DNA of 47,989 nucleotides from an uncultured Anaerobiospirillum sp. (GTDB lineage Bacteria > Pseudomonadota > Gammaproteobacteria > Enterobacterales > Succinivibrionaceae). This document shows positions 22,271 through 28,211 of the stretch, one piece after another. The DNA is taken from NCBI GenBank assembly GCA_944389785.1, contig CALXNP010000006.1, positions 1 to 47,989 of the forward strand, given 5' to 3'. Numbering within the stretch: the stretch's first letter is position 1; each line of letters starts with the position of its first letter. Under the pieces are notes generated by a model. The model was not told where the DNA came from. It saw nothing but the letters and a program-made list of their open reading frames with translations, and ran no database searches. The position numbers and the translations under genes are program-made.

Positions 22271-22351
22271 GGCATAAAATTTTCATATGAATTTGTACTT
22301 TTTAATCTTTAAGTATAAAAATAACTAAAGACTAATAAGAGAGAAAATATT

Positions 22352-23668
22352 ATGGCAATATATGTAAATACTAATGTTAGTAGTTTAAATGGTCAGCGTC
22401 GGCTTGCTAATGCTACTAACTCATTAAATACTACATATCAAAGGCTATCTTCAGGTTTACGCATTAATAGCGCAAAAGATGATGCGGCGGGTTTACAGAT
22501 TTCAAATCGCTTAACCTCACAAATTAATGGTCTAAACCAAGGCAATAGAAATGCTAATGATGGTATTGCTTTAGCCCAAACGGCAGAAGGTGCCATGGAA
22601 GAAATGACCTCTATGATTCAGCGTATACGTACATTAGCAATACAATCAGCTAATGGTACAAATACCCAAGCAGATAGAGACTCTTTGCAAAAAGAGGTAT
22701 TAGCATTAAATGATGAGCTTACTCGTATATCAGTAAAAACTACTTTTAATGGTGAGCAAATTTTAGCAGGTAAGGATTCTGGCTCAAGTTTACTTGATTC
22801 TAGAGGTCGTATAAATTTCCAAGTAGGTGCATACGCTTATGATACCTTATCTGTAGATTTATCAGATGGTTTTAGTGTTACTCAAATGAGTAAAACAGTT
22901 TTTAGTGATTGGAGTGAACCTATAGGTCTTGAGATTGTTGATAAAGCAAATGATCCTGAGTATCAGGGTATGAGTGATGATGAGATCATAGCTTTAGGTA
23001 AAATTGATATTACTTTTGCTCAAAGCATTGTAAAAGGTACTGTTGATGGTACTAATCCTGTAGGTTCTACAGGTGCCGATACAAATTCAGCTTTTGTTGA
23101 TAGTACAGGTGCAGCTTTGGCAGGAAATTTCTTTGATGCTCAACAAAATCCTGTAGGTAAAAGTGTCTATCTTGATAAGGCAGCTATTGATGAAGTATTG
23201 CTTTCTGCAAGTAAAGAAGGTGATGGTACACAAACTTCTGATAGTGCCCGTGTTTTGGTAAAAGCTTTATTTGGTTTAGAGGTTGAAGAGCAAGCTGGAG
23301 TTGATATCACTGAAACTGATGCTGCTGCTCTTACTACGGCTAAAGATAATCAAAAGTTTACTATAAGTGTAGATTCTTATGCTTCATCTCAAGCATCTAT
23401 TAGCTTTATGGATAAATTATTGATGGTAATTGATTCAAAGCGTGCAGATTTAGGTGCTGTTCAAAACAGAATGGAGTCTACTATACGTAATCAAGCAAGT
23501 ATTGCTGAAAATACAACAGATGCAAGATCACGTATTAGAGATACAGATTTTGCTGCAGAAACAGCAAATCTAAGTGCACAGACAATCTTACAACAATCAT
23601 CGCAGACTGTTCTGTCACAAGCAAATCAGAGACCACAGATTGCTTTATCTTTATTGAATGCAATGTAA
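22352..23668 (+). CDS. Flagellin 1 of a four-gene tandem array
   Basis: Flagellin polymerises into the helical filament after export by the flagellar type III system. The N-terminal D0/D1 region (about residues 1-175, with TYQRLSSGLRINSAKDDAAGLQIS) and the C-terminal D1/D0 region (about 345-438, ending QANQRPQIALSLLNAM) are classic; the middle (about 180-340) is variable. This copy is the most divergent: it starts MAIYVNTNVSSLNGQRRLANA and ends LLNAM, where the others end in LLGG. TAAGAGAGAAAA lies 5-16 bp before the start. A candidate sigma54 box at 22270-22285 (TGGCATAAAATTTTCA) has TC in place of the -12 GC, so its promoter is uncertain. The rest of the 22271-22351 spacer is AT-rich. Confidence 0.96.
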   Translation: MAIYVNTNVSSLNGQRRLANATNSLNTTYQRLSSGLRINSAKDDAAGLQISNRLTSQINGLNQGNRNANDGIALAQTAEGAMEEMTSMIQRIRTLAIQSANGTNTQADRDSLQKEVLALNDELTRISVKTTFNGEQILAGKDSGSSLLDSRGRINFQVGAYAYDTLSVDLSDGFSVTQMSKTVFSDWSEPIGLEIVDKANDPEYQGMSDDEIIALGKIDITFAQSIVKGTVDGTNPVGSTGADTNSAFVDSTGAALAGNFFDAQQNPVGKSVYLDKAAIDEVLLSASKEGDGTQTSDSARVLVKALFGLEVEEQAGVDITETDAAALTTAKDNQKFTISVDSYASSQASISFMDKLLMVIDSKRADLGAVQNRMESTIRNQASIAENTTDARSRIRDTDFAAETANLSAQTILQQSSQTVLSQANQRPQIALSLLNAM

Positions 23669-23696: not shown

Positions 23697-23776
23697 AATG
23701 TGTTTAACTTTAATTTGTTTTATCTATAGAAACTGTATGTAAACAGTAATATCTAGATAAATAAGAGAGAAATATT

Positions 23777-25120
23777 ATGGCACTATATGTAAATACTAAC
23801 GTTAGCAGCTTAAATGGTCAGCGCATGCTTACAAATGCTACTAACTCATTAAATACAACCTATCAAAGATTATCATCTGGCTTGCGTATTAACAGCGCAA
23901 AAGATGATGCTGCAGGACTTCAGATCTCTGATAGATTAACTTCTCAAATCAATGGTTTAAATCAAGGTAATAGAAATGCTAATGATGGTATTGCACTTGC
24001 TCAAACAGCAGAAGGTGCCATGGAAGAAATGACTAATATGTTACAGCGTATTAGAACATTGTCATTACAATCAGCTAATGGTACAAACACCCAAGCAGAT
24101 AGAGACTCATTACAAAAAGAAATTTTATCTTTATCTCAAGAACTTACTCGTGTATCAGTAAAAACTACTTTTAACGGTGAGCAAATTTTAGCAGGTAAAG
24201 ATTCAGGTTCTACCTTACTTGATTCAAAAGGCAATATGAACTTCCAAGTAGGTGCATATGCCTATGATACTTTAGCAGTTGATCTATCAGATGGCTTTAG
24301 CGTATCACAAATGACAAAAACTGCCCTTATGGACAATTGGGATGGAAATATAGAACTAGAAGTTGTAGATCCTGCAACTCAACCTGAATATGCTGACATG
24401 TCTATTGATGATCTTTTAGCAGAAGGTAAAATTACTCAAGAGTTTGCAGGAAAACTTGTTGCAGGTGGCAGTGATGCAAAATCTAGTACAGATGTTACTG
24501 CTAATGCTATAGATGCAACTTCGGCAGTGTTTCTTAAGACAGCTACAGGTAGTTATACAACTTCCACAGATCTTGCTACAGCTACAACAGATTTTCAGGT
24601 TAATGACAAACTTTATATAAACAAAACAAATGTTGGACAAATTTTACTAAGTGCTTCTGAAACTGATGATGGTGGTGATGTAGCTGCTTCAGCTCGTACA
24701 TTAGTAAAATCACTCTTTGGTCTTGAAGTTCATGCAGATCCAGCTAGATTATCTTCTGGTACAACTGCAGATACAACAGCAGAAGGACTCTTTAAAGATA
24801 TAGATAAGAACATTACCTTTATAGCAGATACCTATGCATCTTCACAAGGTTGCTTGAAGTTTGTTGATGAATACTTAATGGTAATTGATGCAAAGCGTGC
24901 AGATTTAGGTGCTATTCAAAACAGAATGGAGTCTACCATACGTAATCAATCAAGTATTGCTGAAAATACAACAGATGCAAGATCACGTATTAGAGATACA
25001 GACTTTGCTCAAGAAACAGCAAACTTAAGTGCACAGACAATCTTACAGCAATCATCACAAACTGTATTGTCACAAGCAAATCAAAGACCACAAATAGCTT
25101 TAGCTTTACTAGGTGGTTAA
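23777..25120 (+). CDS. Flagellin 2
   Basis: A filament subunit of 447 residues. The conserved ends match the neighbouring copies almost exactly (MALYVNTNVSSLNGQRMLTN at the start; TILQQSSQTVLSQANQRPQI before LALLGG at the end). The variable centre begins with a TALMDNWDGNIELEVVDP block shared with flagellin 4, then differs (serine/threonine- and alanine-rich, about 220-340). TAAGAGAGAAA precedes the start. The gap to flagellin 1 (23669-23776) contains a hairpin at 23677-23696 and an ACTGT/ACAGT inverted repeat but no good sigma54 or sigma28 box, so the gene may depend on read-through. Its 3' UTR carries the anti-leader element at 25133-25144. Confidence 0.96.
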   Translation: MALYVNTNVSSLNGQRMLTNATNSLNTTYQRLSSGLRINSAKDDAAGLQISDRLTSQINGLNQGNRNANDGIALAQTAEGAMEEMTNMLQRIRTLSLQSANGTNTQADRDSLQKEILSLSQELTRVSVKTTFNGEQILAGKDSGSTLLDSKGNMNFQVGAYAYDTLAVDLSDGFSVSQMTKTALMDNWDGNIELEVVDPATQPEYADMSIDDLLAEGKITQEFAGKLVAGGSDAKSSTDVTANAIDATSAVFLKTATGSYTTSTDLATATTDFQVNDKLYINKTNVGQILLSASETDDGGDVAASARTLVKSLFGLEVHADPARLSSGTTADTTAEGLFKDIDKNITFIADTYASSQGCLKFVDEYLMVIDAKRADLGAIQNRMESTIRNQSSIAENTTDARSRIRDTDFAQETANLSAQTILQQSSQTVLSQANQRPQIALALLGG

Positions 25121-25132
25121 TAAAATTTTAAG

Positions 25133-25144
25133 TTTTCTCTCTTA
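25133..25144 (+). promoter_or_regulatory. Anti-Shine-Dalgarno-like element in the flagellin 2 3' UTR
   Basis: TTTTCTCTCTTA is the exact reverse complement of TAAGAGAGAAAA, the ribosome-binding region of flagellin 1 (22336-22347). Eleven of its bases (TTTCTCTCTTA) are complementary to the leaders of flagellins 2, 3 and 4. It lies between the stop codon and the terminator at 25153-25182, the layout of a seed in a 3'-UTR-derived small RNA. The function is inferred. Confidence 0.5.
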
Positions 25145-25152
25145 AAATGCTT

Positions 25153-25182
25153 GGCCTAAGCTTTATGCTTAGGTCTTTTTTA
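25153..25182 (+). terminator. Terminator of flagellin 2
   Basis: GGCCTAAGC (25153-25161), loop TTTAT, GCTTAGGTC (25167-25175) and then a T run. The same hairpin is repeated after flagellin 3. It lies within a 48-bp block (25133-25180) that is identical to 26614-26661. Confidence 0.88.
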
Positions 25183-25213: not shown

Positions 25214-25299
25214 GTCATTAGTATGTAGAGTTTTAAGCTTGTGTATAAGGTAAAAATCTACTAAAACAATTATTTATTGATAAATAAGAGAGAAATATT

Positions 25300-26607
25300 A
25301 TGGCACTATATGTAAATACTAATGTTAGCAGCTTAAATGGCCAGCGTATGCTTACTAATGCTACTAACTCATTAAATACTACATATCAAAGATTATCATC
25401 TGGCTTGCGTATTAATAGCGCAAAAGATGATGCTGCAGGCTTGCAGATTTCAGATCGTTTAACCTCACAAATCAATGGTCTAAATCAAGGCAATAGAAAC
25501 GCAAATGATGGTATTGCCTTAGCCCAAACGGCAGAAGGTGCCATGGAAGAAATGACTAATATGCTACAACGTATTAGAACATTAGCTTTGCAGGCTACTA
25601 ATGGTACAAATACACAAGCTGATAGAGATTCTTTACAAAAAGAAGTTCAAGCTTTATCAGAAGAGCTTACTCGTATTTCTGTAAAGACTACATTTAATGG
25701 TGAGCAGATTTTAGCAGGTAAAAATTCAGGTTCTACCTTACTTGATTCAAAAGGCAATATGAACTTCCAAGTAGGTGCATATGCCTATGATACTTTAGCT
25801 GTAGATTTATCAGATGGCTTTAGTGTTACTCAAATGTCTGTATCTGTATATGATGATTGGTCAGAAAGAAGACAATTTGCTGTTGTTGCTGATGATGATC
25901 CAAGAATTGAAGGTATGACAGATGGTGATATTTTAACAGCAGGTTTTATTACAGAAACTATGGCTCAAAATTTAGTCAAGGGTAGTAGTGATCAAGAGGA
26001 TACTCTCACTAATCCTCCAGATAACTCTGTTTTTGAAAAAGAAAATGGAGACCCTGTAGTAATGGCTGATTTAACTGCTGCAACTACAGGAAATCCTGAT
26101 CCTGTAGTTTATATAAGTGGTGCAGGTGTACAAGAGCTTATGATTTCTGCTTCAGAGACTGATACAGATCCTGCTAATTCTGTTTGTAGTACAGCAAGAA
26201 CTTTCTTAAAAGAAATGTTTGGTATGCAAATTAAGCCTTTAGATCCTGCTGTAGGATCAGATCAAACTACTTCTATAGATCAAGTACAACCAGACATTAT
26301 TTTTGATGTTACAAGTTTCTCATCAGCTCAATCTACTTTAAAATTTGTTGATGAATACTTAATGGTAATTGATTCAAAGCGTGCAGATTTAGGTGCTATT
26401 CAAAACAGAATGGAGTCTACTATACGTAATCAATCAAGTATCGCCGAAAATACAACAGATGCAAGATCACGTATACGTGATACAGACTTTGCTTTAGAAA
26501 CAGCAAATTTAAGTGCCCAGACAATTTTGCAGCAATCATCACAAACTGTATTGTCTCAAGCAAATCAAAGACCACAAATAGCTTTGGCTTTATTAGGTGG
26601 TCAATAA
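25300..26607 (+). CDS. Flagellin 3
   Basis: A filament subunit of 435 residues with the conserved D0/D1 ends; it ends LALLGGQ. The variable centre is related to flagellin 1 at its start (VYDDWSERRQFAVV here, VFSDWSEPIGLEIV in flagellin 1) and then becomes acidic and proline-containing. One unusual feature is a cysteine in the centre (NSVCSTARTFL), while flagellins 2 and 4 have their cysteine in SSQGCLKFVDEYL. It has its own sigma54 box (25198-25213), the TAAGAGAGAAA leader (25285-25295) and a terminator at 26634-26662, so it can be an independent unit. Confidence 0.96.
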   Translation: MALYVNTNVSSLNGQRMLTNATNSLNTTYQRLSSGLRINSAKDDAAGLQISDRLTSQINGLNQGNRNANDGIALAQTAEGAMEEMTNMLQRIRTLALQATNGTNTQADRDSLQKEVQALSEELTRISVKTTFNGEQILAGKNSGSTLLDSKGNMNFQVGAYAYDTLAVDLSDGFSVTQMSVSVYDDWSERRQFAVVADDDPRIEGMTDGDILTAGFITETMAQNLVKGSSDQEDTLTNPPDNSVFEKENGDPVVMADLTAATTGNPDPVVYISGAGVQELMISASETDTDPANSVCSTARTFLKEMFGMQIKPLDPAVGSDQTTSIDQVQPDIIFDVTSFSSAQSTLKFVDEYLMVIDSKRADLGAIQNRMESTIRNQSSIAENTTDARSRIRDTDFALETANLSAQTILQQSSQTVLSQANQRPQIALALLGGQ

Positions 26608-26613
26608 TTTTAA

Positions 26614-26625
26614 TTTTCTCTCTTA
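26614..26625 (+). promoter_or_regulatory. Anti-Shine-Dalgarno-like element in the flagellin 3 3' UTR
   Basis: This is the second copy of TTTTCTCTCTTA, complementary to the flagellin ribosome-binding regions, placed 6 bp after the flagellin 3 stop codon and 8 bp before the terminator stem. It belongs to the 48-bp block (26614-26661) that is identical to the one after flagellin 2. Confidence 0.5.
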
Positions 26626-26633
26626 AAATGCTT

Positions 26634-26662
26634 GGCCTAAGCTTTATGCTTAGGTCTTTTTT
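26634..26662 (+). terminator. Terminator of flagellin 3
   Basis: GGCCTAAGC (26634-26642), loop TTTAT, GCTTAGGTC (26648-26656) and then T7. It is the same hairpin as at 25153-25182. Confidence 0.88.
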
Positions 26663-26801: not shown

Positions 26802-26903
26802 ATTAAATAGATTTTAATTGTAATGTATTTTTATCTTTATCAAGCTATATGAAGATTAAGGTTTTTAGCAGTAAAAACTATTGGATAATAAGAGAGAAAT
26901 ATT

Positions 26904-28211
26904 ATGGCACTATATGTAAATACTAACGTTAGTAGCTTAAATGGCCAGCGTATGCTTACTAATGCTACTAACTCATTAAATACTACATATCAAAGATTAT
27001 CATCTGGCTTGCGTATTAACAGTGCAAAAGATGATGCAGCAGGTTTACAGATTTCAGATCGTTTAACTTCACAAATCAATGGTCTAAATCAAGGCAATAG
27101 AAATGCCAATGATGGTATTGCTTTAGCCCAAACGGCAGAAGGTGCCATGGAAGAAATGACTAATATGTTACAACGTATTAGAACACTATCATTACAATCA
27201 GCTAATGGTACAAATACCCAAGCAGATAGAGACTCATTACAAAAAGAAATTTTATCTTTATCTCAAGAACTTACTCGTGTATCAGTAAAGACTACCTTTA
27301 ATGGTGAGCAAATTTTAGCAGGTAAAGATTCAGGTTCTACCTTACTTGATTCAAAAGGCAATATGAACTTCCAAGTAGGTGCATATGCATATGATACTTT
27401 AGCAGTTGATCTATCAGATGGCTTTAGTGTGTCACAAATGACAACAACTGCCCTTATGGACAATTGGGATGGAAATATTGCACTTGAAATTGTAGATCCT
27501 ACTGTAGCAAATTCACCATATGCAGGTATGAGTGATGAGGATCTTTTAGCAGAAGGTAAGATTTCTCAAACTTTAGCATTAAATATAATGAAAGGATCTT
27601 CAAATCAGCAAACAACAGGTACTATAAATACAGCAAATAATAATACTGCTTTTCTTAAAAATTTAAATAGTCCTGCTGAATATGCTATTGGAACTAGTGA
27701 CCTAAATGCAGGTGCTACAGTGTATATTAATAAAGAAAATGTAGGTGAAATTTTAATGAGTGCTACAGAAACAGATAGTAATGGTAACGCTGTAGCTTCA
27801 TCTGCAAGGACTTTAGTAAAATCACTCTTTGGTCTTGAGGTTCATGCTGATCCTAATTTAGCTACTAGTGTTACCTCTACAGTTGATAATATTGATAAAA
27901 ACATTAACTTTATAGCAGATACATATGCTTCCTCACAAGGTTGCTTGAAGTTTGTTGATGAATACTTAATGGTAATTGATGCAAAGCGTGCAGATTTAGG
28001 TGCTATTCAAAACAGAATGGAGTCTACCATACGTAATCAATCAAGTATTGCTGAAAATACAACAGATGCAAGATCACGTATTAGAGATACAGACTTTGCT
28101 CAAGAAACAGCAAACTTAAGTGCACAGACAATCTTACAGCAATCATCACAAACTGTATTGTCTCAAGCAAATCAAAGACCACAAATAGCTTTAGCCTTAC
28201 TAGGTGGTTAA
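26904..28211 (+). CDS. Flagellin 4
   Basis: A filament subunit of 435 residues. The first about 190 residues and the last about 110 are nearly the same as flagellin 2, including the TALMDNWDGNI block and the FIADTYASSQGCLKFVDEYL segment. The C-terminal 200 bp are almost identical at DNA level, which points to recent duplication or gene conversion. The middle (about 200-300) differs and is Asn/Thr-rich. It has its own sigma54 box, a long structured leader and a distinct terminator (28236-28266) that lacks the anti-leader element. Confidence 0.96.
   Translation: MALYVNTNVSSLNGQRMLTNATNSLNTTYQRLSSGLRINSAKDDAAGLQISDRLTSQINGLNQGNRNANDGIALAQTAEGAMEEMTNMLQRIRTLSLQSANGTNTQADRDSLQKEILSLSQELTRVSVKTTFNGEQILAGKDSGSTLLDSKGNMNFQVGAYAYDTLAVDLSDGFSVSQMTTTALMDNWDGNIALEIVDPTVANSPYAGMSDEDLLAEGKISQTLALNIMKGSSNQQTTGTINTANNNTAFLKNLNSPAEYAIGTSDLNAGATVYINKENVGEILMSATETDSNGNAVASSARTLVKSLFGLEVHADPNLATSVTSTVDNIDKNINFIADTYASSQGCLKFVDEYLMVIDAKRADLGAIQNRMESTIRNQSSIAENTTDARSRIRDTDFAQETANLSAQTILQQSSQTVLSQANQRPQIALALLGG

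Follow-up and report, generated by a model that had tools for sequence, protein, structure and literature searches.

In the Succinivibrionaceae, whose members live in gut and rumen, the 3′ untranslated regions (UTRs) of many flagellin mRNAs contain a short stretch complementary to flagellin ribosome-binding sites, which fits the start site of the same mRNA or of a sister mRNA. In many genera these tails form a conserved structured RNA that is restricted to the family and placed behind flagellin genes. Leader and tail have changed together in evolution, which suggests an RNA feedback brake on flagellin. We therefore consider it probable (roughly 75%) that the 3′ end of the flagellin mRNA acts as a negative-feedback element by pairing with the ribosome-binding site. 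That flagellin 3′ UTRs pair with flagellin ribosome-binding sites, as an initial annotation had proposed, is strongly supported by the covariation across the family.

The window, by which we mean the whole analysed stretch of 47,989 nucleotides, contains four flagellin genes in tandem. The features relevant here are the following:

22336..22347, + strand: target in the leader of flagellin 1, TAAGAGAGAAAA, 12-nt match to the seed
22352..23668, + strand: flagellin 1 coding sequence
23762..23772, + strand: target in the leader of flagellin 2, TAAGAGAGAAA, 11-nt match to the seed
23777..25120, + strand: flagellin 2 coding sequence
25125..25148, + strand: predicted weak A/U hairpin of 8 bp, whose loop UUUUCUCU presents part of the seed
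25127..25181, + strand: 3′-UTR RNA element of flagellin 2 (seed, spacer, terminator); covariance model R1, 26.7 bits, E = 1.4e-4
25133..25144, + strand: anti-Shine-Dalgarno seed TTTTCTCTCTTA in the flagellin 2 3′ UTR, complementary to all four flagellin leaders
25153..25181, + strand: intrinsic terminator of flagellin 2, stem 25153-25175 and U run
25285..25295, + strand: target in the leader of flagellin 3, TAAGAGAGAAA, 11-nt match to the seed
25300..26607, + strand: flagellin 3 coding sequence
26608..26662, + strand: 3′-UTR RNA element of flagellin 3, a duplicate of that of flagellin 2 (R1, 18.4 bits, E = 0.014), closed by the terminator of flagellin 3 (stem 26634-26656 and U run)
26614..26625, + strand: anti-Shine-Dalgarno seed TTTTCTCTCTTA in the flagellin 3 3′ UTR, complementary to all four flagellin leaders
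26889..26899, + strand: target in the leader of flagellin 4, TAAGAGAGAAA, 11-nt match to the seed; its own 3′ UTR lacks the seed
26904..28211, + strand: flagellin 4 coding sequence

The seed is the pyrimidine stretch inside TTTTCTCTCTTAAAATGCTTGGCCTAAGCTTTATGCTTAGGTCTTTTTT, the ending shared by flagellins 2 and 3. The initial annotation had placed seeds at 25133 and 26614 that match the ribosome-binding site of each of the four flagellins by 11-12 nt of complementarity, and had noted that flagellins 1 and 4 have no seed at their 3′ ends; the window sequence bears out both statements. Many other Succinivibrionaceae flagellins are likewise seedless. With at most one mismatch, the window holds six matches (expected 0.87 ± 0.98), a number that no shuffle reached. 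The two seed copies are not independent, however, because a single duplication of a 3′ end (88% identity over 69 nt) made both, and since duplicates cannot decide the matter we set aside chance within the window as a test. Against dinucleotide shuffles of their own 3′ UTRs, the three carriers in the genome showed modest matches (p = 0.003, 0.016 and 0.026). The weight of the case thus comes from comparative data and not from the window match alone.

Throughout the source genome (2.2 Mb), the 11-mer is counted ten times, in six flagellin leaders, three flagellin 3′ UTRs and one flgD leader, vs a single occurrence of the reversed pattern. As these occurrences are nearly all in flagellin genes, with one in flgD, the seed is linked to flagellar genes. 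Two of the three 3′ UTRs are in the window and the third belongs to a fifth flagellin gene on contig C44; the flagellin genes on C91, C84 and C112 are likewise without the seed. The leader of the C84 gene, ATTTTAAGAGAGAA (L034:110-130 in the source genome, G000), matches the seed over 14 nt, its own 3′ UTR being seedless. The flgD leader (L002:1353-1366; contig C2:14352-14365) carries a perfect 14-nt complement to the seed, TTTAAGAGAGAAAA; a sigma-54-like promoter lies upstream of it, and the genome has no other perfect site besides the seeds' own complements. We rejected flgD as a conserved trans target, as the site is confined to the source genome among readable flgD leaders and absent from those of relatives (start sites being readable in less than half of the loci).

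To compare leaders and tails across the window's near relatives, we collected 243 flagellin genes with leader and 3′ UTR from 32 Succinivibrionaceae genomes and scored, for each gene, the best ungapped antiparallel pairing of the leader, from −35 to −1, with the pre-terminator part of the 3′ UTR. Own pairs scored 17.99, vs 15.19 (sd 0.20) for permutation over all genes and 16.96 for permutation within genomes, neither reaching the own score in 10,000 trials. At the genome level, the scores were 18.48 for own and 15.89 for permuted pairs (0/20,000), and collapsing redundant leaders and tails, which left 148-154 genes, did not change the result. The initial annotation had named co-variation of seed and leader in related genomes as a check; both change together over these 243 genes and 32 genomes, the opposite of a seed that drifts while the leaders stay constant. 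This final statistic, with pre-terminator sequence and more genes, was picked after seeing first results; an earlier version, the ungapped score on the whole 3′ UTR, gave 674/5000 within genomes. RNAduplex energies were dropped as a statistic, being dominated by G+C content and not significant in the within-genome test. Taken singly, G023 and G014, which have the largest sets of flagellins, were also not significant in the within-genome test.

Strong pairs are centred on leader positions −16 to −8, which is the Shine-Dalgarno region. The gene-specific covariation within genomes is clearest in G005, G001, JALKIM and G015. Paralogues of G005 have different matched pairs (TGTTTTATAGTAGGA/TCTTACTATAAAACA, TAGTAGTAAAGGGTGATCA/TGATTAACCTTAACTACTA and TTTGGAGATAAAAAA/TTTTTTATCTTCAAG), with a score of 29.5 for own and 16.8 for paralogue tails, and two adjoining genes of G015 carry CTCAGGAGATAAA/TTTCTCTCCTGAG and TTGGGAGAAAAA/TTTTTCTCCCAG. 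Pairing in Anaerobiospirillum extends past the Shine-Dalgarno core, for example in GACCAGAGAAGAGAGAAA/TTTCTCTCTCTTATGGTC, and in G002 one pair, GCAGGAGAGAGAG/CTCTCTCTCCTGC, is perfect over 13 nt.

It could be argued that composition and descent suffice for such matches: tails rich in pyrimidines, leaders that resemble Shine-Dalgarno sites and 3′ ends copied by duplication would yield complementarity that has no function. A CU tract fits many Shine-Dalgarno sites because these are purine-rich, the window copies do stem from one duplication, and a small excess is also present in 114 non-flagellin genes from these genomes (14.35 vs 13.53, 15/5000; 168 flagellins with terminators, 18.40 vs 15.28). 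This excess, together with a weakly positive direct-repeat control in 154 non-redundant genes (58/5000), shows that base composition and array effects contribute. Yet in the same 154 genes the strong gene-specific signal is found only in the antiparallel-complement orientation (18.08 vs 17.01 within-genome permuted, 1/5000), the parallel control (15.64 vs 15.64) and the mirror control having no excess. The signal also survives in the 169 genes without CTCTC in their 3′ UTR, both over all genes (16.67 vs 14.33 permuted) and within genomes (16.67 vs 15.94, 5/10,000), and is therefore not merely that of a generic anti-Shine-Dalgarno tract. Further, flagellins outside the Succinivibrionaceae show no signal, neither in 56 genes (13.39 vs 13.41) nor in 67 genes with Marinomonas left out (13.67 vs 13.41), and the stems of the element have paired changes (see below). 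We thus regard an origin by composition and descent alone as improbable.

CTCTC before the terminator is found in 30% of Succinivibrionaceae flagellins, 8% of control genes and none of the 67 flagellins from outside the family. The flagellins of Marinomonas (L055, L057, L058, L061) are an exception outside the family, in that UCUCUCCUAG, located in a 3′-UTR hairpin before the terminator, matches the leader; this seed perhaps evolved independently.

Viewed formally, each flagellin gene lies between two inverted repeats, its leader and its seed, so that these might act in DNA, as inversion or recombination sites, rather than in RNA. We consider this very improbable, since the sequence varies from gene to gene and the repeats are placed between stop codon and terminator at one end and over the Shine-Dalgarno at the other, within a structured RNA. 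The ratio of G-U to A-C mismatches (77:50 against 956:805) leans toward RNA over DNA repeats, but the counts are not decisive.

The tail shares one layout in many genera, comprising UUUCUCUC(C/U)UGAGC, a small hairpin with GAGC/GCUC as its closing stem, the sequence UUGGCC and the terminator. The seed consensus, UUUCUCUCYUGAGC, is invariant in 20 sequences save for the C/U position. A covariance model (R1), built from nine sequences and excluding that of the window, found the element in 24 of 57 Succinivibrionaceae genomes. Nearly all matches are directly behind flagellin genes, whose leaders carry the complementary GCUYAGGAGA or UAGGAGAGAAA. Among 369 genomes of the class there was one weak match, which had no seed and was rejected. 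In an alignment of 32 distinct rows, fitted to the model, 96.7% of cells pair and there are 29 double-sided pair changes vs 5.9 in shuffles. Searches of four carrier loci against Rfam gave no family at gathering score for the element; at a relaxed threshold none passed for the window, where suhB/mmgR reached 22.6 bits, under its cut-off of 41. Two copies in the Anaerobiospirillum group have no flagellin upstream (L257:1501-1548, L261:1501-1578) and are possible free-standing sRNA genes; another, intact, lies behind a seemingly decayed flagellin gene (L247, G017 contig C31).

The element behind flagellin 2 is probably a diverged member of this family, in which the small hairpin is replaced. We read the window element as a probable homologue because R1, although built without the window, reaches both the window copies and the copy on C44 (30 bits); under stricter filters and at the threshold for whole genomes, R1 did not report the window element. 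Probably the small hairpin was lost and the leader became UAAGAGAGAAA. The initial annotation had described each seed as single-stranded and 8 bp before a hairpin. The distance holds for both copies, with 8 nt to the stems at 25153 and 26634, and the seed at 26614 is predicted to be single-stranded; at 25133, however, eight of the seed nucleotides are predicted to lie in a loop, on top of a weak A/U stem of 8 bp. Full-length folds, which are rough and unreliable for mRNAs of 1.4 kb, predict pairing of the Shine-Dalgarno with the 3′ UTR at about 0.90 for flagellin 2 and 0.87 for flagellin 3, vs 0.07 for flagellin 1 and 0.41 for flagellin 4. In folds of this kind, the mean was 0.33 over 68 Succinivibrionaceae genes and 0.12 over 45 genes outside the family (p = 1.2e-5).

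We propose that the pyrimidine-rich seed upstream of the terminator pairs with the extended Shine-Dalgarno region of the flagellin mRNA that carries it. Sister mRNAs with similar leaders, such as those of this window, would be paired in the same way. Pairing in the cell would block ribosome binding and probably invite RNase cleavage, so that flagellin output would fall as complete flagellin transcripts build up. The route could be within one mRNA, as in icaR, or by a processed, probably Hfq-bound sRNA from the 3′ UTR, as in OppZ and CarZ.

The processed form is a real possibility, although we would put it at somewhat below even odds. Processing by RNase E or at the terminator would free a stable sRNA of ∼55-65 nt, which with Hfq would repress matching flagellin mRNAs and perhaps flgD. 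Seed, small hairpin and U-tailed terminator resemble the build of an sRNA, the seed is near-invariant, and the leaders of seedless flagellins fit equally or better (12 nt in flagellin 1, 14 nt on C84), and the flgD leader has its 14-nt site. Copies apart from intact flagellin genes exist (L257, L261, L247) and hfq is encoded in the source genome, on contig C9. Yet a common sRNA would not need different gene-specific pairs among paralogues, and the flgD site is not kept in relatives. A second Hfq-like match lies on contig C70 of the source genome (3840-4019, 53.7 bits).

Folding of the completed mRNA onto its own Shine-Dalgarno, an icaR-like lock acting through RNase III or reduced initiation and provided once per paralogue, is conceivable but tentative. 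The gene-specific matching within genomes (0/10,000; best in G005, with G001, JALKIM and G015) leans toward such self-pairing, and the full-length folds do pair Shine-Dalgarno and 3′ UTR; overall, such a lock fits the data equally well as a released RNA. However, the folds themselves are unreliable at this length, the window seed fits seedless paralogues too, and coupling of transcription and translation would restrict folding back, a point discussed by the icaR authors (PMC3868564). Action in cis and in trans may both hold for the feedback element, as with OppZ, a released RNA acting on its own operon.

The initial annotation did not recognise such a feedback loop from the literature, which needs correction in view of FliX (PMC10578931), OppZ and CarZ (PMC7398697) and icaR (PMC3868564). 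FliX is an sRNA from the 3′ UTR of E. coli fliC that lowers fliC mRNA and flagellin, for which negative feedback was proposed; its pairing sites lie within coding sequences (fliC, S10 operon), and it is described as conserved in some Enterobacteriaceae only (PMC10578931). The element described here shares the origin in a flagellin 3′ UTR and, if it represses, the lowering of flagellin; compared by description, it differs in having the Shine-Dalgarno, with which it covaries, as partner in place of coding sequence. In Staphylococcus aureus icaR, a UCCCCUG motif in the 3′ UTR pairs with the Shine-Dalgarno region at the other end of the mRNA, an interaction that its authors call a singular example of 5′-3′ UTR pairing in bacteria (PMC3868564). 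The flagellin tails likewise have a 3′-UTR motif complementary to the Shine-Dalgarno of the same mRNA. Yet icaR is a single Gram-positive gene with a long 3′ UTR on which Hfq has no effect, whereas the flagellin element is short, precedes the terminator, is shared by many flagellin paralogues within a single family and covaries with the leader. OppZ and CarZ of Vibrio cholerae are autoregulatory 3′-UTR sRNAs (PMC7398697; review PMC9438474), which pair with their own transcript and inhibit its translation in a feedback loop. As in sRNAs of their kind, the element has the intrinsic terminator of the mRNA at its 3′ end, and its pairing with the translation initiation region of that mRNA is supported by complementarity and covariation; OppZ and CarZ, however, derive from operon mRNAs with proven RNase E processing, whereas the element belongs to single flagellin genes and is known from sequence.

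In a literature search with scant coverage of subscription journals, we found no description of the element in Succinivibrionaceae and no comparative case of bacterial 5′-3′ UTR pairing. FliX is a precedent for an RNA regulator from a flagellin 3′ UTR; the main novelty here is the comparative evidence. One gene family supplies many natural compensatory leader/tail pairs, so that end-to-end self-regulation of bacterial mRNAs becomes directly testable by swapping matched and mismatched ends. The pairs also offer a possible explanation of how one bacterium balances very many flagellin genes. More speculatively, and on balance doubtfully, each Succinivibrionaceae flagellin paralogue might have a private 5′-3′ UTR lock, which would evolve in step with the leader of that gene and set its dose separately, with no dedicated regulator. 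If so, a genome whose flagellin genes number from dozens to about a hundred would set each dose by RNA self-pairing. Flagellin genes are very numerous in G023, with about 100 flagellin matches, and in G019, with 41, in arrays genome-wide.
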